Shown one piece after another: positions 300 through 29,823 of a DNA stretch of 29,823 bases. Source of the DNA: a virus. A program made the position numbers and the translations under genes. The notes beneath the pieces are model-generated. The model worked only from the letters and a program-made list of their open reading frames with translations, was not told the DNA's origin and ran no database searches. Every line of letters starts with the position of its first letter. The stretch's first letter is position 1. The stretch covers positions 1 to 29,823 of the IMG/VR virus record IMGVR_UViG_3300022743_000014; one strand, written 5' to 3'.

Positions 300-677
300 A
301 TGAAGATATATGAAATAACAGAATCCTTGGAGTTTTCGCAACCAGCTCAACAGTTTAATACAGACTTTCGCCCAGACATGGAACTGGCTGAAGATGACTT
401 AGAAGAAGGGCCGGTTCTCGACAAAGCGAAGAAAGCAGTAGCAGTAGCAGGTGCAGCTATTGGTCTTGCTGCAATGGCCCCGCAAGCACATGCAGATACA
501 TCGTTTAATGCACGTGCCGGGGATGCAAAATACGCTCAAATGCAACAACTGCAAAACTCTTATTTCCAACAGTTTTTACAAGATGCCAAAGAGTCTGGTG
601 CACCGATCACAGCAGATTTGATTAGACGGTTGCGAACTAAAGCTCAGATGAAAGCAGTAGATCAACTATCGACTTGA
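300..677 (+). CDS. Tagged small protein with internal signal-peptide-like segment
   Basis: 125 residues from the ATG at 300. An in-frame start at 240 is possible, but MKIYEITE matches the N-termini of MKINEITE (14612) and MQIKEIITE (29637), so 300 is preferred. Residues 1-8 resemble the T4 capsid-targeting tag ending in [IL]-x-E. Residues 30-36 hold another such site (DLEE before G37). Straight after come a basic stretch (DKAKK, 41-45), a hydrophobic run (AVAVAGAAIGLAAM, 46-59) and APQAHA at 60-65, the exact layout of a Sec signal peptide. The C-terminal 60 residues are polar and helical (Gln/Lys-rich). I do not recognise a family. I infer a capsid-packed protein whose export signal is exposed after prohead cleavage. 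Confidence 0.75.
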   Translation: MKIYEITESLEFSQPAQQFNTDFRPDMELAEDDLEEGPVLDKAKKAVAVAGAAIGLAAMAPQAHADTSFNARAGDAKYAQMQQLQNSYFQQFLQDAKESGAPITADLIRRLRTKAQMKAVDQLST

Positions 678-682
678 ATTTG

Positions 683-1747
683 CTAAATTTGTAGATAGCT
701 TATAAACGCAGGCATAAAATACTCTGCATACCAATCCGTCCGCATGATGTGAGCATAATTGTGTTCACACGCCGGGCGGATTTTTTCTAATATGTCTTGT
801 TGATTTTGGGTTGCTAGATAACGCACTTGCTCAAGTGCCAAATCAAATCGCTGTGTTAATGGCTCAGTGCTGTCGTAGCTTTCGTCAATTACGTTTCCGA
901 AAGTTTTGAATCCGATGTTGCGCAGATTCTGTAAACTATGCTGACTACTGAGTGAAATAAACAATCGTTTGCCAAGAATTGGTTTGACTGTCTTTTCTGT
1001 GTAAAAGGTATAGTGATTGCTATAACTTGTTTCTGCCACAAGACTGTATGCAGATTCATTGTAGATTTCAATGGGCACAATCTGACTTAAACTCATTCTG
1101 TATCCATGATAGTTCACACGATCAACTGTCCATTCTACTGGTTTCTCAAGCACTAGCCCATTGCTTTCCCAACGCCACCTCTCTGGATCATCAAACTCAC
1201 AATCGTGAGTGTCCAAGTAAGTGACTACATTCTTTTCACGGTCTAGTTGCTGATATGCAATATCTCTGTGAAATTTCTTTCTGCCCAATAACGCATCAAA
1301 CATCTTGGGTTTTCTAACAAATGGTTGTAGTTGGTTGGTCAGTAACTGTGGACGTTCATGTTTGTAAAAGTGAACTGTGGTACTGAACCAATCATAGAAC
1401 TTGTGAACTGGACTGTGTTCAAGCTGCCAATTAAAGTCACCACAGATAAAGTAGCTGATTTGTCTGTTGTCATTGCGTTCAACAAACTCAACAGTGCGGT
1501 CATGTAATTCACTCATTAAGATGAGTACATGGTCACAGTGCGCTAGTAAATCTCTTACTGTGCTGTCAAATGCGCTATCAACGGGATAAGGCATTTGAAA
1601 ACACGCAACTTTGCGTGGATGCTTGCTGGCTTTGAAACTATCAATGTCTGTGTAAACTTCAATTGCATGAGTGAGCCAACACTTGGTAAAGTGAAAATGG
1701 AAAAGGGCGTCTGTAGCCTGAGTTACAAACACCCCTGTCTTCTGCAT
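683..1747 (-). CDS. Glycosyltransferase-like phage protein
   Basis: 354 residues from the ATG at 1747; a TTG at 1753, directly after the upstream stop, would add two residues. The C-terminal third carries FYTEKTVKPILGKR, then LRNIGFKTFGNVIDESYD. This EKT-x-KPI followed by GFxTFxxxIDExYD pattern recurs in viral proteins related to fucosyltransferase/exostosin-type glycosyltransferases, where EKT-KPI is near the nucleotide-sugar site. The N-terminal half is rich in aromatic residues and His and shows no obvious domain. It is translated directly behind the H1-like gene (7 nt apart), so the two form a minus-strand pair. A sugar-modifying role on DNA, virion or host surface is possible; the substrate cannot be read from sequence. 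Confidence 0.6.
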   Translation of the reverse strand: MQKTGVFVTQATDALFHFHFTKCWLTHAIEVYTDIDSFKASKHPRKVACFQMPYPVDSAFDSTVRDLLAHCDHVLILMSELHDRTVEFVERNDNRQISYFICGDFNWQLEHSPVHKFYDWFSTTVHFYKHERPQLLTNQLQPFVRKPKMFDALLGRKKFHRDIAYQQLDREKNVVTYLDTHDCEFDDPERWRWESNGLVLEKPVEWTVDRVNYHGYRMSLSQIVPIEIYNESAYSLVAETSYSNHYTFYTEKTVKPILGKRLFISLSSQHSLQNLRNIGFKTFGNVIDESYDSTEPLTQRFDLALEQVRYLATQNQQDILEKIRPACEHNYAHIMRTDWYAEYFMPAFISYLQI

Positions 1748-1753
1748 GATCAA

Positions 1754-2065
1754 TTACTTGGTTGCAGTCTTCTTAGCTTTAGCTGCTGGCTTCTTTGCAG
1801 TTGCCTTAGCTGGTGCTTTCTTTGCTGGTTTAGCAGCTGGTTTCTTGGCCGCAGTTGGCTTAGCAACGCGAGGCTTTTTAGCCGGCTTAGTAGTTTCAGA
1901 AATCACCTCCTTTGCAGGCTCAGCTACTGGGGTAGATTCCTGAGCAGGTGTCTCAACTACTGTAGACACGGGTTCGACTGTTGCAGCCTTCTTTGGTTTG
2001 TGAGTGACAATAACTACCAAAACCAATAGACCCAAAAGGGCTAAACTGATTGTTAAAAAATCCAT
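1754..2065 (-). CDS. Membrane-anchored histone-H1-like Lys/Ala/Pro protein
   Basis: 103 residues. The start at 2065 (MDFLTISLALL) is chosen over 2083 because AGGAGAT lies 7 nt before it. Residues 4-22 form one strongly hydrophobic helix, followed by HKPKKAA and a Pro/Glu/Thr linker (about 27-60). The last 40 residues are a Lys-Pro-Ala repeat of histone H1/AlgP type (KKPAAKPAKKAPAK), expected to bind DNA or another polyanion. I infer a membrane-tethered, cytoplasm-facing basic tail. Low complexity makes homology claims weak. It precedes the glycosyltransferase-like gene on the same strand and is divergent from the phasin-like gene at 2238. Confidence 0.7.
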   Translation of the reverse strand: MDFLTISLALLGLLVLVVIVTHKPKKAATVEPVSTVVETPAQESTPVAEPAKEVISETTKPAKKPRVAKPTAAKKPAAKPAKKAPAKATAKKPAAKAKKTATK

Positions 2066-2142
2066 TCTTTGATCTCCTTGCAAGTTTGAATGTACAGTTA
2101 TTTAATTAGAGACCACTGTCTAGTAAAAATTTCCCATCTTTG

Positions 2143-2171
2143 TTGCAGTGCAGCATAAGTAAATATATAAT
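2143..2171 (+). promoter_or_regulatory. sigma70-type promoter for phasin-like gene
   Basis: TTGCAG (2143-2148), 17 nt, TATAAT (2166-2171). It lacks the AATGATTTTGGTTG spacer of the early promoter series. It leaves a leader of about 60 nt before the ATG at 2238. Confidence 0.65.
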
Positions 2172-2237
2172 AGGACATAAGATGCTGCATAGGGCAGGTC
2201 TTATAAAATCGTAAACTCGCTTAATAAGGAGAAATAC

Positions 2238-2507
2238 ATGTTTACACTTGACACCGCAATCGACTTCATCCAAACTGGCAAAAAGAACTTTGTCAACACG
2301 GTTTTCGCAAACCAAGAAAAGGTCGCAGAAGCTCTTAACCAATTTGTTGATGCACAAACTGCATACACAAAGGGCGCAGTTAAAGCTGGTACTGACGTTG
2401 CAACTAAGTTGTCCAGCGAAGCTGTTAAGGCAGCTCAAGAAGTCTCTAAGTTTGATTACTCTAAGGCTTACACTCAGTTCACTGAGTCTTTCAAAGCCAA
2501 GAAGTAA
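2238..2507 (+). CDS. Phasin-like small helical protein
   Basis: 89 residues, start supported by AAGGAGA 7 nt upstream. The sequence MFTLDTAIDFIQTGKKNFVN, followed by AEALNQFVDAQTAYTKGAVKAG and a C-terminal amphipathic stretch (EAVKAAQEVSKFDYSKAYTQ), is Ala/Lys/Gln-rich, Cys-free and fully helical in appearance, like the phasin family that coats polyhydroxyalkanoate granules. It is shorter than many phasins (often 110-190 residues). Any amphipathic coiled-coil protein could look similar, so the assignment is tentative. It is monocistronic: its own promoter upstream and a strong terminator 24 nt after the stop, suggesting abundant independent expression. Confidence 0.6.
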   Translation: MFTLDTAIDFIQTGKKNFVNTVFANQEKVAEALNQFVDAQTAYTKGAVKAGTDVATKLSSEAVKAAQEVSKFDYSKAYTQFTESFKAKK

Positions 2508-2530
2508 TTTACTTTAATCCCCAATCTAAA

Positions 2531-2550
2531 CCCGCTTCGGCGGGTTTTTT
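2531..2550 (+). terminator. Rho-independent terminator
   Basis: CCCGC, loop TTCG, GCGGG, then six T. A tight tetraloop hairpin ending the phasin-like transcript. Confidence 0.9.
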
Positions 2551-2554
2551 ATTT

Positions 2555-2562
2555 TATAAATA
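2555..2562 (+). promoter_or_regulatory. T4-type late promoter TATAAATA
   Basis: Exact TATAAATA followed by CAT, directly after the terminator and 19 nt before the ATG at 2582. Matches the T4 late consensus. Confidence 0.65.
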
Positions 2563-2581
2563 CATAAAATGAGGATTCGGA

Positions 2582-6139: not shown

Positions 6140-7288
6140 ATGGGCCCAGAAAACAAGATTTTTTGTGCGGCACCTTTTGCCGCATTACGCATTGAGACCA
6201 ACAATCACGGTATAACGTATAAGCCGGGCTGTGTGTATCTACCACAAAACAAGATAAGCAGTCTTGAAGAATTCATGAATGGGTCAGAAATGACAGAGCA
6301 TAGGACAAATCTATGCAATGGGTCTGTGCCAAGTCCCGGGTGTGCGCGAGGCCGAGACACTGAGAAGTTGGGGCTAACAAGTACACGACAGCATCTTAAT
6401 AAAAAGTTGCCACTATCAGACACTGTGGATATAAAGTTGTTGGACATTATGTACAGCAACATTTGCAACCTCAGTTGTTTTATGTGCAATCCTGAATCAA
6501 GTTCAGCCATATCCAGTGAGCGATCTACCATTGGTCTTATAGAAAAGCCAGTGCCATTTTTTGACAATTCAAATTATGCTATACAGGCCATTGACAGTCT
6601 GCCAAGTTTGGCTAAGGTAGACTTGATAGGTGGTGAGTTCTTTTTGTTCAAGCAGAATCAAATGATTTTGGACAAGATCGTAGAACGAAACCTTGCTTGT
6701 AGAATCATTACCAATGCAACCATCGTATCTGATGCAGTGATTCAGCGTCTGCAAAATATTGAAAATCTCGAATTAGAGGTCAGTGTAGATGGGGTTAGAG
6801 ACTGCTATGAATTCATGCGGTATCCTGCGAATTGGGCAACAACATCCGATAATATTCACAAGCTGCGACAAGCACTACCAAATGCAAAGATGAAGTTTGT
6901 TATGGTAGTTCAGCCATTGAATATTCAGCATATAGTTGACACTCTGGAAACTCTAAACACTTTCCGTCTTGCAACACACTTCCAAGACTTATCAACTCCC
7001 AAATACTTGTCTTGGTCAATTCTGACTGAGCAAGAGAAAACAGACCTAGACACATTGGTCAGAAATCAATTACCAAATGCCAAGATAACCAGCAAACAGC
7101 GTTTAGAAATAGAAAGCACATTATCGGCAATTTCAAACTCTGTGCATAATGGTCAACTCAGACATATGGCTATAGACTTTTTGGTTAAAACACTCAAGCA
7201 TAGAAATATAAAACCTGCTATAATCTCTAGACAATTCGGAATTTTCGAATCTTTCACAACTCAACTACTATCAGGATATCATGCCTAA
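6140..7288 (+). CDS. Radical SAM protein, phage twitch-type
   Basis: 382 residues. The radical-SAM cluster motif is C109-x3-C113-x2-C116 (ICNLSCFMC), followed by GGEFF at 164-168 in the position of the GGEP motif, which contacts S-adenosylmethionine, and ELEVSVDG (about 213-220). Upstream Cys (C9 in CAAPF, C31 in KPGC, C59, C68 in PGCARG) look like ligands of a second iron-sulfur cluster, as in the SPASM/twitch families. The reaction is a radical modification of an unknown protein, peptide or base. The promoter lies in the end of the SprT gene. The last 8 nt overlap clpP, so the two are probably co-expressed. Confidence 0.85.
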
Positions 7289-7904
7289 TTACGTACCTAC
7301 CGTACTTGAAAAAACCTCCAATGGCGAACGTGCATACGACATTTACAGTCGATTGCTCAAAGATCGTATCGTTATGCTAGACACGGATGTTAACGAACAT
7401 TCAGCAAGTTTAATTGTCAGTCAACTTCTTTATCTTGAAAGTGAAAATCCAGATGCCGATATCCTATTCTACATTAACAGTCCCGGTGGCTCAGTCACTG
7501 CTGGCTTGGCAATATATGACACTATGCAGTTTATCAAGCCTGATGTTAGCACCATTGTATTGGGCCAAGCCTGCTCTATGGGAAGTTTCCTCGCACAAGC
7601 AGGAGCCGCAGGCAAGCGATACGTTCTCCCCGAATCACGCACAATGATTCACCGTGTGAGTTCAGGTACTCCTGGAACTCGTGGCAGTGTACACGTTCAA
7701 GAACTTCAATTTGAAGATGCTAAACGCAGCTTTGAAGAAAGCCAACGTTTGAATGAGCGTTTGACTTATCTTTATACCAAGCATAACACTGCTGGTAAGA
7801 CTTATCAAGAGTTCTTTGAAGCCATGAAGTTTGATACCTTCTTGAGCGCCGAAGAAGCTGTTGCCTATGGTCTTGCTGATGAGGTTGTTGAAAAACGCAA
7901 GTAA
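7281..7904 (+). CDS. clpP: ATP-dependent Clp protease proteolytic subunit
   Basis: 207 residues, full family length. [20 protein letters not shown] at the N-terminus and [20 protein letters not shown] are nearly canonical for bacterial ClpP. Catalytic Ser99 (GQACSMGSF), His124 (TMIHRVSS) and Asp185 ([10 protein letters not shown]) are all present. The handle region after His124 diverges from usual ClpP ([12 protein letters not shown] instead of HQPxGGxxGQ), which could alter ring assembly or partner choice. ClpP needs an AAA+ partner (ClpX/ClpA); none is seen here, so a host partner is assumed. It starts inside the end of the radical SAM gene. Confidence 0.95.
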
Positions 7905-8149
7905 TGACTGTTCGTATGTCAATGGCCATGATGACTAGTCAAGTTCCTATTAATGGCACTCGCATTCAGCTGCCAACTAAGTGGGATAAGATTGTAGCGG
8001 CAGGGGCTTGGCTAAGTGAAAATGTGCCAAATCCTCCGCTGCCCCAGTCACAACGATACAATATCTATAACGACACAGACGGATCTGTGATCGTTGAGTT
8101 TGCTGATGAACAAGATGCCATCATGTTCAGTCTAAGTTGTAATCTATGA
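7904..8149 (+). CDS. Small paralog 1 of DEDA/F-L-W family
   Basis: 81 residues, starting in a TAATG overlap with clpP. After a Met-rich N-terminus ([15 protein letters not shown]) it has KIVAAGAWLSENVPNPPLP and ends VEFADEQDAIMFSLSCNL. The W-L-x-E-N-V helix and the closing strand-helix with D-E-x-D-A-x-x-F-x-L are shared with the next two genes and with 25211 and 26709. Function unknown; probably a small alpha/beta domain. Confidence 0.75.
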   Translation: MTVRMSMAMMTSQVPINGTRIQLPTKWDKIVAAGAWLSENVPNPPLPQSQRYNIYNDTDGSVIVEFADEQDAIMFSLSCNL

Positions 8150-8430
8150 CCGAGTTTAACGTTTCACGTTATGTAATCCCCACTCGCAGAGATTCTAACA
8201 ACGGTCTACACGACCTAGTTGAGTGGCTAGACGAGAATGTTGGCGAGTGGGATAAGAATGTCTACAATAGAACCAGTAACATTGTCAGAGAGGGTAAGGG
8301 CTGGACTATTAGAACGCTCAAGAACGGCAGAGAAACCTCAGATGGTGAGGGCTATTCTGTGATTTCATGGCATGCGCACATTGAAGACGAAGAAAAAGCA
8401 GTTTTGTTCGCACTCAAGTGGGTCAAGTAA
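8146..8430 (+). CDS. Small paralog 2 of DEDA/F-L-W family
   Basis: 94 residues, ATGA overlap with paralog 1. LHDLVEWLDENVGEWDK is the conserved helix, followed by GKGWTIRTLKNGRET and the C-terminal signature HIEDEEKAVLFALKWVK. Its similarity to the 8431 protein is clear by eye (WLxENVGE, then DExKAxLFALKW), so these are tandem duplicates. Function unknown. Confidence 0.8.
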   Translation: MTEFNVSRYVIPTRRDSNNGLHDLVEWLDENVGEWDKNVYNRTSNIVREGKGWTIRTLKNGRETSDGEGYSVISWHAHIEDEEKAVLFALKWVK

Positions 8431-8745
8431 ATGGCTGTATTTGACATTACCCAAGTAGTCACTCATACAGAAACGATTTGGGATAGATCCGACAGTCGCT
8501 ATAAGAACATTAAAGCAATGGTGGATTGGCTTACGGAGAATGTAGGCGAATACTACGGGCGTGGTGATGACCACACTGATCACGATACAAAGGGCAAGGG
8601 ATCAATTGCAATTCGCATAGGCAGCGGCTGGGAAATCACCAGAGATTGGAAAGGTGACCCTGACGGTTATGTTGAAGTGTGGTGGAAAGTGGATATCACT
8701 GACGAAGCCAAAGCCACACTGTTTGCATTGAAGTGGATTAGATAG
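8431..8745 (+). CDS. Small paralog 3 of DEDA/F-L-W family
   Basis: 104 residues, starting directly after the previous stop. Contains IKAMVDWLTENVGEYYGRGD, RIGSGWEITRDWKGD and closes DITDEAKATLFALKWIR. The closest relative is the gene immediately upstream. The extra Asp/His-rich loop (DDHTDHDTKG, about 50-59) may bind metal but no motif is certain. It ends the operon that starts at 6140. Confidence 0.8.
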   Translation: MAVFDITQVVTHTETIWDRSDSRYKNIKAMVDWLTENVGEYYGRGDDHTDHDTKGKGSIAIRIGSGWEITRDWKGDPDGYVEVWWKVDITDEAKATLFALKWIR

Positions 8746-9751: not shown

Positions 9752-9772
9752 TAGAGTTATAAATACTCTATC
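9750..9772 (+). promoter_or_regulatory. Late promoter inside perfect inverted repeat
   Basis: TATAAATA (9758-9765) is the loop of GATAGAGT (9750-9757) and ACTCTATC (9765-9772), arms of 8 bp; the ATG follows immediately at 9773. A T4-type late promoter fused to a palindrome, with a leader of a few nucleotides at most. Confidence 0.7.
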
Positions 9773-10747
9773 ATGAAATTCTTAGAATACACAAACGGCT
9801 ACAACGCCATTCCAGAAGTCTACGTGGACATGGATGGGGTTCTAGCCGATATGTTTGGCGAAGTGGCTCGTCATCACGGTGTTAAGCACTGGCGTGATGC
9901 ACGAAAAGAACGCAGAAAGCAAAACAGTAAAATAGACAAACTCGCCAAGAAAGCGGGATTTTTCAAAAATTTACCACCGCTGCCCAACGCAGGCAAATTG
10001 ATTAAAGGGGTCTTGCAGGTCGCAGAAGACTATAACATCCTGAGTAGCCCCATGCTTAGTTGCGTAGAGCAAAGCAGCAGAGAAAAAGCGGATTGGCTAC
10101 AACGTCATCTGCGCAAGAATCCACCACGTAGCGTGTTATTTGATCACGAGAAGTTCAAGTTTGCCAAACAAGCTGATGGGACTCCCAACATTCTAATCGA
10201 CGACTACGATACTAATATCAAACTATGGGAAGCCAACGGCGGTATCGGTATTTTGTACAAAGACTCTGAATGTGACCGTGCATTAAGGCAATTGAATGCT
10301 GCAATGCAGGGCAAGTTCAAGCGCACATTCAATCTACCATTGGCAATCTTGAATAAAGAGCAAGAGCAACGTACTGAAAGCGCGGATGCCCCGACACTAG
10401 ACCTGAGCAAGCGTTATTTCACAAACAAAGAAGTGTTAAAGTATGTAAAGGGTATTCACGTTGATGGGTATAGTCTTGATGAACCCATTGAAGAATACAA
10501 AATCTGGGAACTCAAGATGTATCCAACCAGCAAAATGAGTAGCCCAGAGAAGTATGATCAAGACGACCGCTATCGTCGTGTGATTGATCTTGATTGGGAC
10601 CACATACAAGATATCACCAAACAAGACCTAAAAGAAAAGCCTGTAGTCATAGATGACAAGGGGTGGGTACTTGACGGAAACCACAGAGTAACAGCAGCCA
10701 GAGCAGCTGGTTACAAGCGAATCCCCACACTAGTTCCGCATAAATAA
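9773..10747 (+). CDS. HAD phosphatase-like / ParB-like fusion protein
   Basis: 324 residues. The N-terminal half is a HAD 5'-nucleotidase-like domain: motif I VDMDGVLAD (nucleophile D19, acid D21), motif II SS (91-92), a Lys in motif III (EKFKFAK, about 126-132) and acidic motif IV IDDYD (142-146). The C-terminal 100 residues end in KGWVLDGNHRVTAARAAGYK, the ParB/Srx-type nuclease-like signature (L-D-G-N-H-R). I infer nucleotide dephosphorylation plus DNA or NTP binding. MKFLEY at the start loosely resembles the tag on other late genes. Late promoter immediately upstream, no ribosome site. Confidence 0.8.
   Translation: MKFLEYTNGYNAIPEVYVDMDGVLADMFGEVARHHGVKHWRDARKERRKQNSKIDKLAKKAGFFKNLPPLPNAGKLIKGVLQVAEDYNILSSPMLSCVEQSSREKADWLQRHLRKNPPRSVLFDHEKFKFAKQADGTPNILIDDYDTNIKLWEANGGIGILYKDSECDRALRQLNAAMQGKFKRTFNLPLAILNKEQEQRTESADAPTLDLSKRYFTNKEVLKYVKGIHVDGYSLDEPIEEYKIWELKMYPTSKMSSPEKYDQDDRYRRVIDLDWDHIQDITKQDLKEKPVVIDDKGWVLDGNHRVTAARAAGYKRIPTLVPHK
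10739..10746 (+). promoter_or_regulatory. Possible late promoter CATAAATA
   Basis: CATAAATAAAC spans the end of the HAD-ParB gene, 23 nt before the nuclease ATG. Core TAAATA matches; overlap with coding sequence lowers certainty. Confidence 0.35.
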
Positions 10748-11651: not shown

Positions 11652-14612
11652 ATGAGATACCAAGAATTTTTATCCGAAGACGAACTGTTTGAAATTAACA
11701 TGAGCCCGGGCAATTTGACCAAGCTAGTCAAAAACATTCCCGGAGCGATGGTTGGTCTGGAATTTGAAATGATCGTACCCGACGCTAAAATCACAGATGA
11801 CAGCGAAAGCGGAGAAAATGATTATGATCAAGATGAGAGTTGTGATGATATTGATGATATCGTAGACTTCTTTCAACGTGGTAATGGTAGTGATTATAAC
11901 AATGCCAATAGACTACGCGACAGACTACAAGAAGCATACTATGATTGGATGAGTGAACAAAGTAGTGAAGCGTGGGCTCAGAATGCCTCTAGTGAAGTTC
12001 GTAACTGGATCAGAGAAAACACCAGCATCCGAGAAGATGCAATGGAAGAATATCGTGATGAAAATCCAGGTGCAGATGATGATGAAGTGGAATCAGCGGG
12101 CGAGGCTGCTTTTGAAACTGCTTATGATGAAGCCATGGATGAGGCTTGGGGTAACACACACTACGATTCAGCACACGAGCAATGGCGTGACGATTACGAA
12201 AGCGATTTGAGTGAGCGTGATTGGTTGCGTGATCAGGGCTATCGCTACATGTCGGACATTGAAAACAACTTTGATGAAACTTATTGGCCTTATCAGCATT
12301 CGGCAGAAAGCGAAACCAATATTGAAGCCATTGGCGAAGAATTCAGTGATGCAGTTGGTCGTGAAGTAAAAGCCAGTGCTGGATATCATAATATCAATCG
12401 CGGTGATCAGGCCGAAGAAGGTTTCTACATTTTAGAAACAGACGGTAGTCTAGATCCAGATGATCCAGACGATGAAGCAGGGCTTGAGTTTGTCAGTCCC
12501 CCATTGCCAGTCAGTGAAATGATAGACGAGATTCGTAAGGTCGCTGCTTGGGCCAAAACTCGCGGTGCTTATACTGGTAAGCGCAACAAGACTGGTCTTC
12601 ACATGAACGTCAGCGTTCCAGGATACGATCAATCCAAGTTAGACTTTGTTAAGTTGGCACTATTGTTGGGCGACAATCACATTCTGGAAGAGTTTGATCG
12701 TGTAAGCTATACCTATGCCAAGAGTAGTTTTGATTTGTTATCTAGCAGACTGAAAAATAGCCCAGATACTGTCAAGAAAGCACTTGAAGCCATGAAGGGT
12801 CATTTTAACATGGCAGCGAGTAAAGCCATACACAGTGGCAGTACTGACAAATATACAAGTATCAACGTCAAAGGAAATCGCGTAGAGTTCCGTGGTCCCG
12901 GTGGCAACTATTTGCAAATGTTTGAATCTAATCCAAACAAACTACTAGCACCAATGATGCGTATGGTAGTTGCCCTAGAAGCAGCCTGTGATCCAGAAAA
13001 GTATCGCAACGAATATCAAAAGAAACTCTACAAGATGTTGAGCAGCAGCGTCAAGAGTAAAGACTTGTTAGAACTCTTTACCAACTATGCTGCTGGCAAA
13101 GGCATGCCAGGCAGCGCTTTCAAATCATTCTTGAAGCAACGCAAGACTGAACGAGAACTATCCAAAGGCATCAGCCCAGATGATACTACTGTGGGTGGTC
13201 GTAAGACTAACCCAGACGGTGATTGGATCTTGTTCAGACAGCATAGAACTGGCGACACTGTTGCGCCATACGATGTTGAAGTGTTGTATCGCTTTAACGC
13301 AGCAAGTCAAGACGACGCCACAGTGGTCATGGATCAATATGTCAGACAGTATAAGCCTGATTTCCAAGTTAAGGTGGGCAGTGACCCATCTAAGAAATGG
13401 GGCCAACCAAAGTCAGCGGGTGGCAATTGGGGCATCTATCGTAAGAGTGATAACACACGTATGAAATACCGTGGGGAATATATACGTTATGATAACATGA
13501 GCAAAGAAGCGGCTGAGAAAGAAATGCGAGATTTGTTCAGCACAGCACACATAACAGCGGCTATCAACGATTATGAACTTCGTCCTCTAACAAAATACGA
13601 AATCTATTCAACGAGTGATGGACGGGCAGTCAACGGCACTGATGGCAAACCATTACAGTTTGATGCAGGCAGTGAAGCAGAGGCAAACTTTAGATATCCA
13701 AGCATACTAAGCGATTTTAATATCAGCGCAACCCCTGGTGATTATGATATTCGCAGTGTTCTAACCCCACCAGCACATACTACAACTACAAGTAGCACTA
13801 GAACAGAACAACGTGCATGGCAGATTATCAACCAAAGAACTAATCTTGTAGCAGAAGAATTCCTCGCACATGATCGTGCTCATGCGGTTCAAAAGTTCCA
13901 AGACTTTTTATCAAGAGCGCAACAGGTTGGGCGTAATCCAAACGATTACACTCTACGACTAAAAGGTTCTGACGATGGCGAAACTCCCACACAGACAGCG
14001 CCAACGGCAACAGGCGCACCACAGGCAACAGCAGCAAACGGTGTTCCTATGTGGGTCATCTACCGTATCAGTGATGGTGAGGTTGTTCACAGATTTGCAG
14101 ACCATGCAACTAGTCACAGCCGCACAGCACTAAGTTGGTTACGTGACCAGAACTACGAAAACCCAGCAATTTTGTTCAGAGTTCGTGCCATGACACAAGA
14201 CGAATATAGCAGAGAGCGAGATCCAACTGCTGTTCAAAGCACTCCGCCAGCATCTCAAACTCCAAATTGGGAGACAGTAAACGACCGCACTGGTCAAGTT
14301 GTTCACCGTTTCTACGCAGACAATCAGAACAATGCCATTGCTGCTCAATTTGATTACTTAACAAGTCAAGGGTTGACAACAGATGATTTCACTTTGCAAT
14401 CTATTGAACGAGCGCCGCAAGCTCAACAAGCAAGACAAGAGCCAGGCAGACAGTTCACTGGCACTTGGTTAGTCAAAGATAATGACGGCCGTGAGTTGTA
14501 TAGATTCAATGGTGTAGGCAACAATCAAGCAGATGCCAACAGAGTAGCAGCGCAGTGGGCTCAACGAAATATGGTAAGTGGTGAATTTGATGTTGTTCCG
14601 GAGATGGCATAA
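11652..14612 (+). CDS. Tagged amidoligase-like protein with C-terminal repeats
   Basis: 986 residues. MRYQEFLSE at the N-terminus closely resembles the T4 internal-protein tag MKTYQEFIAE, with L-S-E as possible cleavage site. VGLEFEM (34-40), ILETDGSLDPDD (about 258-269), LEFVSPPLP, TGLHMNVSV (about 313) and VEFRGPGGNYL (about 411) are the motifs of carboxylate-amine ligases of the COOH-NH2 ligase fold (putative amidoligase family), which form amide bonds using ATP. A very acidic insert (about 50-230) splits the domain. Residues 520-986 hold about seven repeats of 60-78 residues, each starting W/Y-x-[IV]. First gene of a four-gene operon; no ribosome site at the ATG. Confidence 0.8.
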   Translation: MRYQEFLSEDELFEINMSPGNLTKLVKNIPGAMVGLEFEMIVPDAKITDDSESGENDYDQDESCDDIDDIVDFFQRGNGSDYNNANRLRDRLQEAYYDWMSEQSSEAWAQNASSEVRNWIRENTSIREDAMEEYRDENPGADDDEVESAGEAAFETAYDEAMDEAWGNTHYDSAHEQWRDDYESDLSERDWLRDQGYRYMSDIENNFDETYWPYQHSAESETNIEAIGEEFSDAVGREVKASAGYHNINRGDQAEEGFYILETDGSLDPDDPDDEAGLEFVSPPLPVSEMIDEIRKVAAWAKTRGAYTGKRNKTGLHMNVSVPGYDQSKLDFVKLALLLGDNHILEEFDRVSYTYAKSSFDLLSSRLKNSPDTVKKALEAMKGHFNMAASKAIHSGSTDKYTSINVKGNRVEFRGPGGNYLQMFESNPNKLLAPMMRMVVALEAACDPEKYRNEYQKKLYKMLSSSVKSKDLLELFTNYAAGKGMPGSAFKSFLKQRKTERELSKGISPDDTTVGGRKTNPDGDWILFRQHRTGDTVAPYDVEVLYRFNAASQDDATVVMDQYVRQYKPDFQVKVGSDPSKKWGQPKSAGGNWGIYRKSDNTRMKYRGEYIRYDNMSKEAAEKEMRDLFSTAHITAAINDYELRPLTKYEIYSTSDGRAVNGTDGKPLQFDAGSEAEANFRYPSILSDFNISATPGDYDIRSVLTPPAHTTTTSSTRTEQRAWQIINQRTNLVAEEFLAHDRAHAVQKFQDFLSRAQQVGRNPNDYTLRLKGSDDGETPTQTAPTATGAPQATAANGVPMWVIYRISDGEVVHRFADHATSHSRTALSWLRDQNYENPAILFRVRAMTQDEYSRERDPTAVQSTPPASQTPNWETVNDRTGQVVHRFYADNQNNAIAAQFDYLTSQGLTTDDFTLQSIERAPQAQQARQEPGRQFTGTWLVKDNDGRELYRFNGVGNNQADANRVAAQWAQRNMVSGEFDVVPEMA

Positions 14613-15124
14613 TGAAGATAAATGAAATCACAGAAGGTCGTAACGGCGATGTACCAGTATATTACTTTGCCTATGGCATGCTCACGGACCCACAAATCAT
14701 GCAGGGACTACATCTTGTGGGCGTGGCAGAGTTACGCAATTTTGAATACAAGATGTACAACTGGGCCAATGTAGAGCCAACTCCTGGCAGCAAAGTTCTT
14801 GGCTGTTTGTGGGCCATTGACCGACAAGAGATTGCTAGATTAGATCAAGCAGAAGGCTATCCAAGTTTGTATGACCGCAGAACATATCCTGTGTATGTTG
14901 ATGGTAACAAAGTCGCAGCAGAAGTCTATATCATGACTCCATCTACACTTGAGCAACAGCAAGGTGAAGCACCAAGTAGAGGTTATGTAGCACGAGTTGT
15001 TCGTGGTTACAGTAATGCTGGTATTCCATTGACACAACTTGAAAACGCGATTCAGGTCAGCGGCATCGCACCTGACGCACCGCAACACGATTACGATCCA
15101 AGTCCCTGGGCAGACGAAGCATGA
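14612..15124 (+). CDS. Tagged gamma-glutamylcyclotransferase-like protein
   Basis: 170 residues, TAATG overlap with the amidoligase. MKINEITE (1-8) is the tag, nearly identical in DNA and protein to that at 300. YYFAYGML (17-24) is the GGCT/AIG2 substrate loop and E81 in LDQAEGYPSLYDRRTYPV the catalytic glutamate. GGCT enzymes release 5-oxoproline from gamma-glutamyl-amines. Next to an amidoligase it plausibly trims or cyclises gamma-glutamyl bonds that the ligase makes. Stop overlaps the next start by 4 nt (ATGA). Confidence 0.85.
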   Translation: MKINEITEGRNGDVPVYYFAYGMLTDPQIMQGLHLVGVAELRNFEYKMYNWANVEPTPGSKVLGCLWAIDRQEIARLDQAEGYPSLYDRRTYPVYVDGNKVAAEVYIMTPSTLEQQQGEAPSRGYVARVVRGYSNAGIPLTQLENAIQVSGIAPDAPQHDYDPSPWADEA

Positions 15125-15666
15125 AGATAAACGAAGTCATGCAGCTTACTAAAGGCAAGTGGGAGCTACTGCTCACTGCCGCAGATAAACAAGAAGCGGG
15201 CCCAGAACTTGTTAACTTGGTCGGTCGTGCCTACTCTAACACAGACAAAGGTAGTATGATACAGAGTCTGCGTGATGTTGTACCCAGTGATTGGGAAGTT
15301 ATTGATTGGGATCAAGATCCAGACATTGATGCATGTGTCTTCTATCGTAAGCCCAGAGGCAACGAAGCATGGATCGGACACAAGCTACAGGGTCTTGGGC
15401 ATGATGGTACAAGAATTAGCAAGCACAAAGCAATTGAACACATCTTACAACTGCTTGCCAAGCCAGGAGTTTGGATTGAGTCAAGTGATGCATTACGCCA
15501 TGTGTTAAATAAGTTACATGCTCCGTCAGTGACAGGTCAAGACTTCTTGCGTAAGTTGTTCAATGACCCAAGATTGGAAATGGTAGATGAAAATACCTAT
15601 GTTAGAACTCTACAAGACGGCACAAAGATTAAAGAAACAGTATTTGGACACCCGAGACTAAAATGA
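15121..15666 (+). CDS. Conserved phage protein, tagged
   Basis: 181 residues. The tag-like MKINEV begins it, in an ATGA overlap. SDWEVIDWDQDPDIDACVFY, WIGHKLQGLGHDGTRISKHK and IKETVFGHPRLK are strong patterns of a phage protein family that I remember as widely conserved but uncharacterised. The closing ETVFGxPxLK and the GLGHDG loop followed by a helix hint at a GNAT-like or nucleotide-binding fold, but I cannot assign a reaction. Its position inside the amidoligase operon links it to that pathway. Confidence 0.75.
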   Translation: MKINEVMQLTKGKWELLLTAADKQEAGPELVNLVGRAYSNTDKGSMIQSLRDVVPSDWEVIDWDQDPDIDACVFYRKPRGNEAWIGHKLQGLGHDGTRISKHKAIEHILQLLAKPGVWIESSDALRHVLNKLHAPSVTGQDFLRKLFNDPRLEMVDENTYVRTLQDGTKIKETVFGHPRLK

Positions 15667-16808
15667 AAGCACAAGATTTTGTAAGAGCAACAGCAGCATA
15701 TCACGACGAATTATGTCCAGTCGCGTGGACAAATACTAGTATGCGCCCAGAAGTACGCGCCCGCTTAATTGAGATTGCTGAATTGTTTGTGCAATATCTT
15801 GAAGTTCCTGGATTTGAAGTCTATGACGTTGTTTTAACTGGATCATTGGCAAACTATAACTGGACGCAGTTCAGTGATTTTGATTTGCATGTGGTTACAG
15901 ACTATGCAGACTTGAATGCCGATGACTTGGCAGAGAAATTTTATAGAGCAAAGAAGACCATCTGGAATGATCGTCACGACATTACAATTTATGGTCATGA
16001 GGTAGAACTATATGTTGAAGATATCAATGAGCCTCCTGTTAGCGGTGGTGTGTTTAGTGTATACAACGGTGAATGGATCAAAACACCTGATCATAAAAAC
16101 CCCAATGTCAATGACACTGCTGTGGTAAGAAAAGTTCAAGAACTAAGTGATCAAGTTGAGCGTTGTATTACGACAGCAGACGATCCCATGGACTTGAGAA
16201 GATTGACAGATAAACTGCGCAAGATGCGCCAAGCCGGTCTAGATGCTGGTGGCGAGTTTAGTGTAGAGAATCTTGCATACAAGACAATCAGAAACATGGG
16301 CTTGATTAAAGCCCTACATGATGCTTATATTGAAAAACAGGATGATAGTATGAGATTAAACGAATTTGCTCCAGGTGGTGGATTTGAGCCTCCGAAGCGT
16401 CCCCCAGTTCCGGGTAATCGTCGTGACGATGATGACGAGCGTCCAGAAATCATGCCACTTGAAGATGTAGCCAAAGCCATTATGATGCACATTGGCGATG
16501 CATTCACTTGTGAGCGTATGCGTGATCACAGAGGCAAGTTTAACCCAGCACAGCCTGGCTTCAAGTTTGTTCCAAAAGACAAGACAAAGTTTGGCATGGC
16601 CAAGATTTGGTGTCAAGGTGATCGTCGCGGTGAGTTCCCAGTTTATCACACAAGTCTTTACAACTACTTCATGGGCAGTGACGGCAAAGTATTGGCTACT
16701 GGTCAGATGGTAGAGAAGATGAAGCAAAAGACTAATCAGAATGCAATGCACACAGCAGAGCTAATCTATAATCACACTGCTGGCGCGTTGCAACAAAGCA
16801 ACAACTAA
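15663..16808 (+). CDS. Nucleotidyltransferase-like protein with second tagged module
   Basis: 381 residues. TGSLANYNWTQFSDFDLHVV (59-78) is the polymerase-beta-type nucleotidyltransferase motif G-S-x9-S-D-x-D, with Ser61, Asp72 and Asp74; a later acidic residue (VELYVED, about 114-120) completes the metal site. Such enzymes attach a nucleotide to a protein, RNA or antibiotic. Residue 230 is a Met with AGGA 7 nt upstream, opening MRLNEFAPGGGFEPPKRPPV, a tag-like N-terminus in mid-protein, so an internal start is likely. The C-terminal module (DVAKAIMMHIGDAFTCERMR) is a separate unknown domain. Last gene of the operon. Confidence 0.8.
   Translation: MKAQDFVRATAAYHDELCPVAWTNTSMRPEVRARLIEIAELFVQYLEVPGFEVYDVVLTGSLANYNWTQFSDFDLHVVTDYADLNADDLAEKFYRAKKTIWNDRHDITIYGHEVELYVEDINEPPVSGGVFSVYNGEWIKTPDHKNPNVNDTAVVRKVQELSDQVERCITTADDPMDLRRLTDKLRKMRQAGLDAGGEFSVENLAYKTIRNMGLIKALHDAYIEKQDDSMRLNEFAPGGGFEPPKRPPVPGNRRDDDDERPEIMPLEDVAKAIMMHIGDAFTCERMRDHRGKFNPAQPGFKFVPKDKTKFGMAKIWCQGDRRGEFPVYHTSLYNYFMGSDGKVLATGQMVEKMKQKTNQNAMHTAELIYNHTAGALQQSNN
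16350..16808 (+). CDS. Possible internally started C-terminal product
   Basis: In-frame ATG at 16350 with AGGA at 16339-16342, spacing 7 nt. It would give 152 residues beginning MRLNEFAPGGG, containing L-N-E and a Pro/Gly/Asp-rich linker (PPKRPPVPGNRRDDDDERPE), then the unknown domain. Not shown to be used; reported because the tag-like start and ribosome site coincide. Confidence 0.4.
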   Translation: MRLNEFAPGGGFEPPKRPPVPGNRRDDDDERPEIMPLEDVAKAIMMHIGDAFTCERMRDHRGKFNPAQPGFKFVPKDKTKFGMAKIWCQGDRRGEFPVYHTSLYNYFMGSDGKVLATGQMVEKMKQKTNQNAMHTAELIYNHTAGALQQSNN

Positions 16809-17136: not shown

Positions 17137-17574
17137 ATGTTATACTTTGCCTATGGCATGAACACTAACGTAGACGGTATGGCTCGTCGTTGCCCAAATG
17201 CAATCAGTTTGGGCTATGCCAAACTGCTAGAACACAAATTTCGCTTTGCTGGCCCTGCTGACGTTATTCGTCACCCTGGTAGCATGGTGCATGGAGTGCT
17301 TTGGGACATAACTCCTGAATGCTTGAAATCACTAGATGGTCTTGAAGGGTTCCCCCATTTCTACAATCGTGAATATCGTAAAGTAGAACATTGGGGCGAA
17401 GAAATTGAAGCAATGGTTTACTTTATGCAGCCCGGGCACAATGAATCTGCTCCAGGTATGGGCTACTACAAATGTTTGCAAGAAGGCTATCACGAACATG
17501 GTGTGCCTACAAAGCAAATCAAACGTGCCGCTCGTCGTGCGAAAAAAGTTCGTGACTACGGCTATTATTTCTAA
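17137..17574 (+). CDS. Gamma-glutamylcyclotransferase, untagged
   Basis: 145 residues; GGAGG 5 nt before the ATG. It opens directly with MLYFAYGMNTN, the GGCT substrate loop, and has catalytic E70 in LDGLEGFPHFYNREYRKVEH. The C-terminus is basic (IKRAARRAKKVRDYGYYF). It is a second, divergent GGCT besides 14612, this one without a tag and behind an early-type promoter. Predicted to act on gamma-glutamyl compounds such as glutathione breakdown products during early infection. Confidence 0.85.
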   Translation: MLYFAYGMNTNVDGMARRCPNAISLGYAKLLEHKFRFAGPADVIRHPGSMVHGVLWDITPECLKSLDGLEGFPHFYNREYRKVEHWGEEIEAMVYFMQPGHNESAPGMGYYKCLQEGYHEHGVPTKQIKRAARRAKKVRDYGYYF

Positions 17575-21574: not shown

Positions 21575-21769
21575 ATGAGTTGCGAATGTTACAAAGTTGG
21601 TGGTCGTTTCATTGCAGAAGATCCAGACTGTCCCGCCCACGGACGTGATGCACAGGCAGCTGAACGCAGTCGCGACCGCAGCAAAGACTACCTGCGAGAA
21701 TGTATTGATCAAGCTGCCACCGTTGAAGAACTCAAGGCTTGCTTGTATGACATGTTGGAACTAATCTAA
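21575..21769 (+). CDS. Small Cys/His protein, possible zinc ribbon
   Basis: 64 residues; AAAGGA upstream. SCECYKVGGRFIAEDPDCPA followed by HGRD: C-x-C-x13-C-x2-H could bind zinc. A charged helix follows (QAAERSRDRSKDYLRECIDQ) and a hydrophobic C-terminus. A similar pattern is common in small phage proteins. Function unknown. Confidence 0.7.
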   Translation: MSCECYKVGGRFIAEDPDCPAHGRDAQAAERSRDRSKDYLRECIDQAATVEELKACLYDMLELI

Positions 21770-21775
21770 TAAATA
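21768..21775 (+). promoter_or_regulatory. Late-like box AATAAATA
   Basis: AATAAATA overlaps the upstream stop and lies 5 nt before the ATG at 21781, the same spacing as at 300. It is the only late-like box in the early-type region. Confidence 0.4.
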
Positions 21776-21780: not shown

Positions 21781-21981
21781 ATGAAAATCACAGAAGCAAC
21801 CCAACCAACAGATGCAACATTGTTAGAAGCATTGAGCAAAGACAACGACACAGGTGTTCTCGCAGAAGACTTGGCAAAAGTTGTTCGCACTCATGGCTCT
21901 GCACAATGGAGCGAGGCTATGACACTTGAGGAATCTCTTTCTGTGGATCGCATGATCGCAGAAGGTAAATTCCCACAATGA
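21781..21981 (+). CDS. Tagged small protein, antitoxin-like position
   Basis: 66 residues. MKITEATQPTDATLLEALSK opens with a tag-like MKITEA. The rest (GVLAEDLAKVVRTHGSAQWS, then MTLEESLSVDRMIAEGKFPQ) is acidic and helical. It lies just upstream of, and overlaps by 4 nt (ATGA), a RelE-like gene, the usual antitoxin position. I infer a partner of that gene, but an antitoxin DNA-binding domain is not evident. Late-like box 5 nt upstream, no ribosome site. Confidence 0.65.
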   Translation: MKITEATQPTDATLLEALSKDNDTGVLAEDLAKVVRTHGSAQWSEAMTLEESLSVDRMIAEGKFPQ

Positions 21982-25210: not shown

Positions 25211-25468
25211 ATGAAACACTACATCGTCCCACGTACGCCGCACACAGCATTTGAGCAAATGATTAAGATTCATGACTGGTGCCGAGAAGCGTTTGGCAGA
25301 GAGGATTATGTTCGTTGGAATATAAACTTTGCTCGTGGCACTGAGGATTATGTGGAGTTTGATTTTCGGGATGATGCAGATGCAAGTGCGTTTGTATTTC
25401 AGTGGGGCGACTATTGCCTGACAAATGAAAAACAACGCAAACTTGGTTTACGTAATTGGGATGAGTGA
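25211..25468 (+). CDS. Small paralog of DEDA/F-L-W family
   Basis: 85 residues. HDWCREAFGREDYVRWNINF and FDFRDDADASAFVFQWGDYC match the helix (x-W-x-x-E-x-x-G) and closing D-D-A-D-A-x-x-F-x-F-x-W of the proteins at 8146 and 8431, with an added C-terminal stretch (CLTNEKQRKLGLRNWDE). Function unknown. Stop overlaps the next start (TGATG). Confidence 0.7.
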   Translation: MKHYIVPRTPHTAFEQMIKIHDWCREAFGREDYVRWNINFARGTEDYVEFDFRDDADASAFVFQWGDYCLTNEKQRKLGLRNWDE

Positions 25469-25752: not shown

Positions 25753-25753
25753 A

Positions 25754-27757: not shown

Positions 27758-27773
27758 TTATTTGTCAAAACGG

Positions 27774-27802
27774 TTGACAAATAAACTTTTTGGTTGTATA
27801 AT
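27774..27802 (+). promoter_or_regulatory. Early-series promoter
   Basis: TTGACA (27774-27779), spacer AATAAACTTTTTGGTTG, TATAAT (27797-27802), then AGATACATC. Its spacer is nearly that of 17588-17604. Confidence 0.9.
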
Positions 27803-27833
27803 AGATACATCTTAAACGAATCAGGAGTTGAAA

Positions 27834-28244: not shown

Positions 28245-28259
28245 TTTTGGTTGTATAAT
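28231..28259 (+). promoter_or_regulatory. Early-series promoter
   Basis: TTGACA (28231-28236), spacer ATAAATGATTTTGGTTG, TATAAT (28254-28259), then AGTTACAAG. The upstream gene's stop (28242-28244) lies in the spacer. Confidence 0.9.
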
Positions 28260-28289
28260 AGTTACAAGTAAACAAAACAAGGAAGCAAA

Positions 28290-28766
28290 ATGTCAACACG
28301 TTCAGCAATCGGTGTAATGCATGGTAATAAAGCCAAAGTTGTTTATTGTCACCATGACGGATACCTGAATTTTAATGGTGTTATTCTGCAAGAACACTAC
28401 GACAGCCCAAAGGCCAATAACTTGGTAGCATTGGGTGACATGAGTTCATTGGGTCAGAATCTTGCGCCACCAGAAGGTGTCGTTCACTCATATCGTGACC
28501 CATTGATGGGCGTTTGTGTGTTCTATGACCGTGATCGCGGTGAACGATTTGGCACCGAATTCCGCGTATGTCAAAGCGACAAAGAGTTGTTTGATACATA
28601 CACTGATTGTGATTATTTCTACATCATGAAAGATGGTGTGTGGTTCGTGTCTCAGGGCGCAGATTCAGAGTGGAAACTTTTATCTGATGCTTTGCAGGAA
28701 GAGCGTGATGCCAGCTACAAGGCACTTAGCATCACTCGTTTAATTGGAATGTCTGAGGAGGCATAA
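28290..28766 (+). CDS. Conserved phage protein, MSTRSAIG family
   Basis: 158 residues; AAGGAAG upstream. MSTRSAIGVMHGNKAKVVYC then HHDGYLNFNGVILQEHYDSP is a pattern seen in many phages and some plasmids, where the protein has no assigned function. C-H-H-D-G-Y with the following Asn/Glu is a plausible metal or nucleotide site, but unproven. CDYFYIMKDGVWFVSQGADS forms the C-terminal strands. Confidence 0.8.
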   Translation: MSTRSAIGVMHGNKAKVVYCHHDGYLNFNGVILQEHYDSPKANNLVALGDMSSLGQNLAPPEGVVHSYRDPLMGVCVFYDRDRGERFGTEFRVCQSDKELFDTYTDCDYFYIMKDGVWFVSQGADSEWKLLSDALQEERDASYKALSITRLIGMSEEA

Positions 28767-28767
28767 A

Positions 28768-28968
28768 ATGGAAAAACTTATCGCATTACTTATTGGCATT
28801 GCAACTCTGATCTTTATCAGCTTTTTGCTATCCTGGCCAGTATTCATGTTGTGGAATGGTTGCTTGGTTGATGCAGTCAGTGGTGCAAAAGAAATCACTT
28901 GGTTGCAGGGCTGGGGACTTTCATTCTTGTTTGGCATTTTGTTCAAGCAAGGCGCTACTACTAAGTAA
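28768..28968 (+). CDS. Small membrane protein, 66 residues
   Basis: ATG 28768 with GAGGAGG 6 nt before it. EKLIALLIGIATLIFISFLL spans the first helix. A Trp/Phe segment (WPVFMLWNGCL), a short polar loop, then a second hydrophobic region (WLQGWGLSFLFGILFKQ). Resembles a common small phage inner-membrane protein; function unknown. Confidence 0.75.
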   Translation: MEKLIALLIGIATLIFISFLLSWPVFMLWNGCLVDAVSGAKEITWLQGWGLSFLFGILFKQGATTK

Positions 28969-28977
28969 GGAATAATC

Positions 28978-29106
28978 ATGCGTGTATTTCTCACTGGATT
29001 TGTTTTAGGCATTGTTGTGGCCACAGTTGGCTTCAGCGGTGTCGCACGTATTCTGGACAATGGTATTTCTACAGTGAAATCCCAAAGTCAGGAACTGGCC
29101 AAATAA
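28978..29106 (+). CDS. Mini membrane protein, 42 residues
   Basis: MRVFLTGFVLGIVVATVGFS then GVARILDNGISTVKSQSQEL. One transmembrane helix and a short polar tail. AAGGAA lies 6 nt upstream. I recall similar phage proteins (VATVGFSGVAR), uncharacterised. Confidence 0.65.
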   Translation: MRVFLTGFVLGIVVATVGFSGVARILDNGISTVKSQSQELAK

Positions 29107-29119
29107 TCGGTCAACCAAG

Positions 29120-29167
29120 ATTTGAATTATAGTTGACTAGTAATCCAATGTCTGCTATAATTCAAAT
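29120..29167 (+). promoter_or_regulatory. Promoter bracketed by 13-bp inverted repeat
   Basis: TTGACT (29133-29138), 17 nt, TATAAT (29156-29161). ATTTGAATTATAG (29120-29132) and CTATAATTCAAAT (29155-29167) are a perfect inverted pair abutting the -35 and covering the -10. A smaller hairpin, TGTCGT-ATTGAA-ACGACA (29169-29186), lies in the leader. A likely operator arrangement. Confidence 0.75.
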
Positions 29168-29221
29168 GTGTCGTATTGAAACGACATTTCAACTCAACTA
29201 ACTTTTCGGAGTATATCTCAA

Positions 29222-29569
29222 ATGACTGACAAACTTTATTCTGTCGCTGGTGTTTCTAAACTCAATGGTGCTTACAAGGTGCGTTTCGCAAACGACTTGG
29301 TTGGCCGTATCAAGGCTCTTGCAAAATCTCATGAGGACGTTCAATTGTTTGAATTGCCCCGTGAAATGAGTAAGGCAGAAGTCGTGAGTTTCTTGAAGGC
29401 ACACGAACTCTACGCAAACCCAACTTATCGTGAGGCGATTGATAACGCCGATGAGAAGTACAACGGCACCAAGACCGTCAAGGTCAAGGCTACTAAGGCA
29501 GCAACAGCAAAGCCAAGCATGGAGTCTATCAAGGCTCGTGCTGAAGCCAAAACTGAAGCAGCCGAGTAA
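29222..29569 (+). CDS. Unknown protein with Lys/Ala-rich tail
   Basis: 115 residues; CGGAG upstream. LYSVAGVSKLNGAYKVRFAN, DLVGRIKALAKSHEDVQLFE and PREMSKAEVVSFLKAHELYA form a compact alpha/beta domain. The last 35 residues (TKTVKVKATKAATAKPSMES) are Lys/Ala/Thr-rich and probably bind nucleic acid or are disordered. A phage family I recall only as conserved. Long leader with promoter repeats and hairpin implies tight control and strong expression. Confidence 0.75.
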   Translation: MTDKLYSVAGVSKLNGAYKVRFANDLVGRIKALAKSHEDVQLFELPREMSKAEVVSFLKAHELYANPTYREAIDNADEKYNGTKTVKVKATKAATAKPSMESIKARAEAKTEAAE

Positions 29570-29597
29570 GCGGTAACGGTTTCATTTATTTCCTTTA

Positions 29598-29619
29598 GCC
29601 CTCTTAGGAGGGCTTTTTT
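29598..29619 (+). terminator. Rho-independent terminator
   Basis: GCCCTC, loop TTAG, GAGGGC, then six T. Closes the early-type region. Confidence 0.9.
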
Positions 29620-29624
29620 GCCTG

Positions 29625-29632
29625 CATAAATA
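29625..29632 (+). promoter_or_regulatory. T4-like late promoter CATAAATA
   Basis: CATAAATACTAG, with the ATG at 29637 only 4 nt after the box; directly after a terminator. Transcription would start at or near the start codon. Confidence 0.65.
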
Positions 29633-29636
29633 CTAG

Positions 29637-29823
29637 ATGCAGATTAAAGAAATCATCACCGAGAGTCTGAGCAGAATTGCTTATCACTATACAAATACTG
29701 CCTCTGCGCTAAAGATCATCAAAACAGGTGTTTTTGAACTTAGCAGTAGTTTGGGCAGCATTGAACAGCAATACGCACCGCCAGGTTACAATTACTTCCT
29801 AAGCACAACACGAACCAAGATGG
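29637..29823 (+). CDS. Tagged ADP-ribosyltransferase-like protein, partial
   Basis: The first 62 residues only; the frame is open at the right edge. MQIKEIITE is the tag, with I-T-E as cleavage site. SRIAYHYTNTASALKIIKTG then FELSS and NYFLSTTRTK match the start of ADP-ribosyltransferases of the H-Y type (YHxT...A..IL..G, then FLSTTR), which move ADP-ribose from NAD to proteins or nucleic acid. T4 packs such an enzyme (Alt) in its head and injects it; the same logic fits here. Late promoter 4 nt before the ATG. Confidence 0.65.
   Translation, partial: MQIKEIITESLSRIAYHYTNTASALKIIKTGVFELSSSLGSIEQQYAPPGYNYFLSTTRTKM

Follow-up and report, generated by a model that had tools for sequence, protein, structure and literature searches.

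The stretch of DNA analysed here, hereafter the window, is the 29.8-kb record IMGVR_UViG_3300022743_000014 of the IMG/VR virus collection (positions 1 to 29,823), and the element in question is a short N-terminal peptide, or tag, with which several of its otherwise unrelated proteins begin. Genes were taken from simple open reading frame (ORF) calls, and some of their starts may be wrong. The full tag was defined as M[KRQ]..E[FI]..E, with [IL]-x-E directly before the expected cut. It was sought at each ATG, on both strands, that opened at least 50 codons, and [ILFVM]-x-E was required within the first 13 residues. The full tag was present at exactly four ATGs of the window, at positions 300, 11652, 14612 and 29637, and all four are gene starts.

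Tagged genes of the window

All the genes described here lie on the + strand. The tag MKIYEITE (300..323), with a predicted cut I-T-E|S after residue 8, begins a protein of 125 amino acids that matches no known family (300..677). MRYQEFLSE (11652..11678; predicted cut L-S-E|D) precedes an amidoligase of 986 amino acids (11652..14612; Amidoligase_2, PF12224, 28 bits against a curated cut-off of 22). MKINEITE (14612..14635; predicted cut I-T-E|G) precedes a gamma-glutamyl cyclotransferase-like protein, GGACT, of 170 amino acids (14612..15124; PF06094, 56.7 bits, curated cut-off 22.8). MQIKEIITE (29637..29663; predicted cut I-T-E|S) begins a protein of ADP-ribosyltransferase fold that is cut by the window end (29637..29823). 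The domains behind the tags are unrelated, as a sequence-only reading of the window had claimed, and each tagged protein of the window contains at most one known domain.

That reading had listed seven tagged N-termini. All seven are present; the remaining three carry only part of the motif. MKFLEY, at the start of a deoxyribonucleotidase (NT5C) with a ParB-like C-terminal part (9773..10747), is tag-like only, has no [IL]xE and is a doubtful member, and relatives of this protein retain M[KR]..[EQ][FYL] and no cut site. MKINEV begins a protein from a family of unknown function (15121..15666), relatives of which bear the full tag, for example MRAIEFVTE|A or MRAREFITE|L. MKITE|A, a short or degenerate tag, begins a protein of 66 amino acids (21781..21981). 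The motif L/I-x-E, after which the T4 prohead protease gp21 cleaves, is present at the four full tags and, in short form, at 21781; it is absent at 9773 and 15121.

At the rate observed at internal methionines of related phages (strict pattern, 3/5195), about 0.03 fully tagged starts would be expected among the ~57 genes of the window (Poisson P ~5e-8), or 0.07 when only M[KRQ] starts are counted (P ~8e-7). A looser definition of the tag, with its higher background, gave P 0.002 for the window alone. The pattern was written after the tags had been seen, and the weight of the argument therefore rests on independent sets, namely T4 and the relatives of the window.

Enrichment of the tag in relatives and in T4

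The window is a piece of a jumbo T4-like phage. Its ClpP (7281-7904) led to contigs encoding ClpP up to 90% identical, and four of these are 320-354 kb long (G005, G006, G014 and G016). No close DNA relatives of the window were found in the phage collection, and a search for related loci by GGACT alone returned no relatives.

In the four jumbo relatives the tag occurred at 17 of 1329 distinct N-termini, compared with 3 of 5195 internal methionine contexts (P 1e-9). Shuffling within peptides gave a mean of 1.8 tags (maximum 7) against the 17 observed, and an unbiased search for triples of residue classes in the same phages likewise yielded a basic residue at position 2, an acidic residue at 5, hydrophobic residues at 6/7 and Glu at 9. 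T4, DSL-LC02 and Atu_ph07 together had the tag at 11 of 810 N-termini and at 1 of 2567 internal methionines (P 1e-6). No significant enrichment was observed in phiKZ and P1 (1/410 N-termini, 2/1887 internal methionines; P 0.45). In the neighbourhoods of genes related to those for ClpP, 15121 and the amidoligase, 174 of 2197 distinct N-termini and 40 of 7697 internal methionines had the tag (P 3e-77), a figure that measures tag frequency where effectors sit, not genome-wide, since most of these neighbourhoods were picked for kinship to tagged genes. When only M[KRQ] starts in the same neighbourhoods were considered, the counts were 174/671 (26%) and 40/1301 (P 2e-51).

The tags conform to the logo M-R/K-A/I-x-E-F/I-I/L-x-E|A/S. 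Among the 174 tags with a site, P3 was I or L in 150 and residue 9 was E in 133, and P1' was most often A or S. The 182 tagged proteins of the relatives fall into 46 loose or ~86 stricter clusters, with domains that include amidoligase, GGACT, DarT-fold ADP-ribosyltransferase, GNAT, NUDIX, HD, kinase-like and GH19. A DNA pattern, ATG-AAR-ATH-NNN-GAR-ATH, was rejected as a detector of such genes: it matched 34 stretches of viral contigs, mostly unrelated, and gp21 was present in only 3 of those contigs.

The same scan of T4 picked out the internal proteins IPII and IPIII, gp61.1 and one further start; IPI, which begins MKTFKEFTSTTTPVSTITE, falls outside the strict pattern. The product of gp61.1 (NC_000866 18966-19130, annotated as hypothetical) begins MKTFKEFIKED, which is similar to the internal-protein targeting sequence, and judging by this start may possibly be an unrecognised internal protein. 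Cultured phages with related tagged proteins are Agrobacterium phage Atu_ph07, Synechococcus phage DSL-LC02, Salicola phage SCTP-2 and Alishewanella phage Slickus01. Small tagged proteins of the relatives, for example L393:9559-9777, resemble it.

A prohead protease in related phages

The sequence-only reading had made its interpretation depend on a gp21-like protease in the genome, and the relatives do encode one. A T4-type gp21 (PF03420) adjoins the gene for the major capsid protein, gp23, in three of the four jumbo relatives, and the fourth contig stops inside gp23. Ten of 14 further large contigs also have gp21. The gene calls of G014 and G016 give the order portal, gp68-like, gp67-like, gp21, gp22-like, gp23, in which the gp68, gp67 and gp22 names were assigned by resemblance. 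Near its start, gp23 of G006 contains QLSE|SATAGG, which we matched by eye to FLTE|AEIGG of T4 gp23; the latter is the known T4 gp21 site.

Four window genes are preceded by late-promoter-like elements: GCTAAATA (287..294, +) ends 5 nucleotides before the ATG at 300, TATAAATA (9758..9765, +) 7 nucleotides before that at 9773, AATAAATA (21768..21775, +) 5 nucleotides before that at 21781, and CATAAATA (29625..29632, +) 4 nucleotides before that at 29637. In the jumbo relatives, TAAATA elements stand 4-8 or ~16-28 nucleotides before start codons and rarely between these distances. Such elements would fit late expression of these genes. Transcripts from a TAAATA only 4-8 nucleotides before the start codon would be almost leaderless.

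Tagged and untagged homologues

Over 61 amino acids, the 29637 protein shares 52% identity with its full-length relative L326:2252-3118. An AlphaFold model of the latter had a mean pLDDT of 76, with low confidence in the first 8 residues and a fold that begins at residue 14. Its eight best matches in the PDB were DarT proteins and tRNA 2'-phosphotransferase (E 7e-4 to 6e-3), with low TM-scores (0.29-0.36, normalised to the query); a PDB sequence search with a profile of this ADP-ribosyltransferase-like family gave nothing useful. The model thus supports the earlier ADP-ribosyltransferase-like call, and a DarT-type fold, for the 29637 family, whose activity, if of DarT type, would be NAD-dependent modification of DNA.

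Distant members of this family start MQKLQDLLFE|A, MKIEQLYE|S and MNLNE|S (a short tag) in three phages, all of which have gp21 and gp23. The homologue in Dickeya phage JA13 is untagged and starts at the domain, and gp21 and gp23 were not found in that phage. Relatives of the 14612 GGACT in G005 and G006 are also tagged (MKITDVLDEA), and in other phages the GGACT match starts no earlier than residue 17 of the query. The window has a second GGACT copy (17137..17574, +), which begins at the domain (MLYFAYGM), as do its relatives. It is a natural untagged counterpart of the 14612 protein.

Variation at the amidoligase locus

The gene that follows NT5C, a nuclease and the amidoligase differs between relatives: it is GGACT in the window, two GNAT-like genes in L006 and a gene for a 327-amino-acid protein in L005. 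The starts at this variable position remain tag-like (MKIIELTE|S and MKINEVIITEIITE|A in L006, MLISELFLNE|I in L005). At one and the same place, G005 and G006 both have MKINEILTEA, and the sequence behind it differs. The loci of T-even internal proteins also vary, and the variation at the amidoligase locus resembles them (PMC12373910).

From the likeness of the DNA at 300 and 14612, the sequence-only reading had suggested that a tag cassette spreads between genes. The likeness is real, and the general cassette found no support. For the seven window tags, 55 comparisons of identical residues gave a shared codon 33 times, where 27 were expected. Codon sharing was 0.652 within loci and 0.617 between loci, and 23 of 300 random samples were as high; an earlier cassette reading of the within-locus sharing (329/500 against 243 expected) was withdrawn after this between-locus control. 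Because codons differ, and because tags of one locus do not clearly share more codons than tags of different loci, selection at the protein level explains the likeness of the tags better than recent copying does. The one clear exception is the pair of adjacent, unrelated genes L386:8434 and 9087, which are identical over the 29 bases that start at the ATG (MRATEFLAEG) and point to recent copying of the tag.

Sites within longer proteins

Behind its tag, the 11652 amidoligase has another conserved site, L-F-E|I, which lies at residue 14 (nt 11693). The motif [LIVMF]-x-E-x-x-M precedes the amidoligase domain in all 60 of 60 distinct relatives, with an upstream part that varies in length and letters; its conservation may be partly structural. 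In about half of the 60, a nucleotidyltransferase precedes the amidoligase within a single ORF of ~1200-2400 amino acids, and these fusions retain L-x-E|[ILV]-x-M at the junction (L322, L324, L328, L364, L393, L399 and others). The junction of the L368 fusion carries a nearly complete internal tag, REFSEFVTE.

In other proteins a tag stands before a Tat-type export signal, as in MRANEFVTE|DMSRRGFLGALGAGAMAASGVAQA. Tags lie directly before such a signal (SRRGFLGALGAGAMAASG..A) in L270:3324-3998, L313:1394-2068 and L314:1344-2012, and in L270 a GH19 domain follows. In the 300..677 protein of the window, the tag is followed by an acidic linker and a hydrophobic stretch (residues ~42-65) ending A-x-A, which resembles an export signal at an unusual internal position. 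The nucleotidyltransferase-like protein in the operon of 15121 (15663..16808, +) contains, at residue 230 (nt 16350), an internal MRLNEF that resembles the tag; this MRLNEFAPGGG precedes a C-terminal part that phage relatives do not cover.

The retention of the junction site in the fusions and the tags before Tat-type signals raise the possibility, which we consider tentative and rather doubtful, that the prohead protease also matures effector polyproteins, the head being a compartment in which a large injected enzyme kit would be cut and sorted.

Small proteins with gp23-like pieces

Small proteins with a common '..FxLKW/LRW' tail contain pieces like the major capsid protein gp23. They were seen in L141 (G006:209041-209406, 210563-210961), L173/L128 (G005:151496-151894), L125 (G001:38109) and L127 (G022:92963). 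The pieces include KILIPMIRKVMPTMIATDIIGVQ (56% over 25 amino acids) and a 60-amino-acid stretch at 43%, and L125 appears to join two separated gp23 pieces. By their resemblance to gp23, these could possibly be capsid-interference or decoy proteins. The window, too, encodes small proteins (7904-8745 and 25211-25468) that end in a similar FALKW-type sequence, but these have no obvious gp23 pieces.

Discussion

The shared N-terminus is very probably a capsid-targeting sequence (CTS) of the T4 kind, by which a set of enzymes would be packed, cut by gp21 and delivered as effectors. In T4, gp21 cuts after L/I-X-E. For targeting, 10 CTS residues of IPIII are enough; this step is controlled by residues 4 and 7, whereas processing depends on residues 8 and 10, and it has been proposed that the CTS may allow T4-like phages to pack various proteins (PMC9026906). 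By analogy, the tagged proteins would be made late in infection alongside the head proteins. Their first 8-10 residues (M-[KR]-x-x-E-[FI]-[IL]-x-E) would dock them in the scaffold core of the prohead, and a gp21-type protease cutting after [IL]-x-E would free the enzymes inside the head. They would then enter the next host with the DNA and act there in the first minutes of infection. The candidate effectors are an amidoligase, a cyclotransferase and a DarT-fold ADP-ribosyltransferase and, in relatives, also GNAT, NUDIX, HD and kinase-like proteins. The adjacent amidoligase and GGACT genes suggest linked chemistry on the carboxyl groups of peptides or proteins.

Of the sequence-only claim that the proteins are packed, trimmed and injected as an effector set, targeting to the capsid followed by gp21 cleavage is supported by the enrichment of the tag and by gp21 in the relatives; packaging, cleavage, injection and effector action themselves are what we infer from sequence. 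Several points weigh against this interpretation. The 29.8-kb window contains neither gp21 nor a head region, which is explained by its fragmentary nature. The full motif is missing from three of the seven listed starts, and two or three of the listed genes are doubtful members. Untagged versions of some families occur within the same phages, as with the GGACT at 17137. JA13 is a single untagged case, its contrast with the tagged homologues could reflect phylogeny, and the four phages in that comparison came from a search, not from random choice. Some tagged proteins are cell-wall enzymes (GH19), which are not obvious cytoplasmic effectors.

The tag might pack proteins whose role is head assembly, DNA condensation or that of passive cargo. 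T4 IPIII does affect head assembly (PMC9026906), and several small basic tagged proteins exist. Most tagged proteins with a known domain, however, resemble enzymes that modify proteins, nucleotides or signals, the genes at the locus vary between close relatives as structural genes do not, and T4 Ip1-3 are anti-restriction effectors (PMC12373910), so that we regard a purely head-related role as unlikely. A promoter and tag recently copied as DNA and pasted onto genes would account for the L386 pair and for the likeness of 300 and 14612; codon sharing within loci that barely exceeds that between loci, and codons in the window shared little more than expected, make this very unlikely as the general explanation.

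Peptidoglycan enzymes among the tagged proteins, and the ClpP encoded by the phage, could instead point to a peptide that sends proteins to the tail or baseplate, the membrane or a protease adaptor, with [IL]-x-E a coincidence. The motif, however, is the T4 CTS minus one residue (MRYQEFLSE against MKTYQEFIAE), it is enriched in phages with gp21, and P3 of the gp21 site at its end is I or L in the great majority of cases (150/174); targeting elsewhere is highly improbable. Chance, or a general preference for MK and AT-rich codons at starts, is barely credible: MK starts are common, and the pattern was defined after inspection, its loosest form giving the modest window-only probability above, but the enrichment holds given M[KRQ], shuffled peptides fell far short of the observed count, and homologues repeat the tags with different codons.

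Several known systems come close to the one described here. As in T4 IPI, IPII and IPIII, a peptide of about 10 residues that ends in the gp21 site L/I-x-E stands on unrelated proteins, from genes of putative late type at a variable locus; the peptide of IPII and IPIII is that compared above with the 11652 tag. Unlike in T4, the tag here is in most cases shorter by one residue (consensus M[KR][AI]xEF[IL]xE), the cargo consists mostly of predicted enzymes, some large (986 amino acids), instead of small internal proteins, and the relatives, jumbo environmental phages, have many more families. T4 Alt, a packaged ADP-ribosyltransferase (MELITELFDE), likewise has this fold behind an N-terminal peptide, probably a head-targeting propeptide, whereas the 29637 family is structurally nearest to DarT and tRNA 2'-phosphotransferase, with no Alt relative among the top matches. 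Polyvalent proteins, whose enzyme domains include ADP-ribosyltransferases, have also been proposed to be injected and to act early as effectors (Iyer et al. 2017, PMC5512222); Kinase-PolyVal gave only weak, sub-threshold matches here. Here, in contrast, the proteins are mostly separate behind a common tag, and only the nucleotidyltransferase-amidoligase fusions of the relatives come near a multidomain layout. We rejected the polyvalent class for the tagged proteins of the window, which do not combine several disparate domains in one polypeptide. Heads of the phiKZ and SPN3US type also contain many packaged proteins trimmed after Glu by a prohead protease, but the phiKZ site is S/A-x-E (PMC9026906), and the present tag is not significantly enriched in phiKZ and P1.

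The literature searched, which left most subscription journals outside, yielded no description of such a tag beyond T-even phages. Capsid-targeting sequences are known from T-even phages; what is new is the breadth of cargo and the enzyme repertoire in environmental jumbo T4-like phages and possibly, in addition, the processing of fused effectors in the head.

Proteins that enter the host with the DNA are normally known only through virion proteomics of cultured phages. Should the tag report packaging, sequence would suffice to predict what many uncultured T4-like and jumbo phages inject, and natural tags would be at hand for loading proteins into T4-type heads. The internal-protein principle of the T-even phages would then extend to a large and variable collection of enzymes, comprising amidoligases, cyclotransferases, ADP-ribosyltransferases, acetyltransferases and NUDIX and HD hydrolases, all good candidates for takeover of the host or counter-defence in the first minutes of infection.

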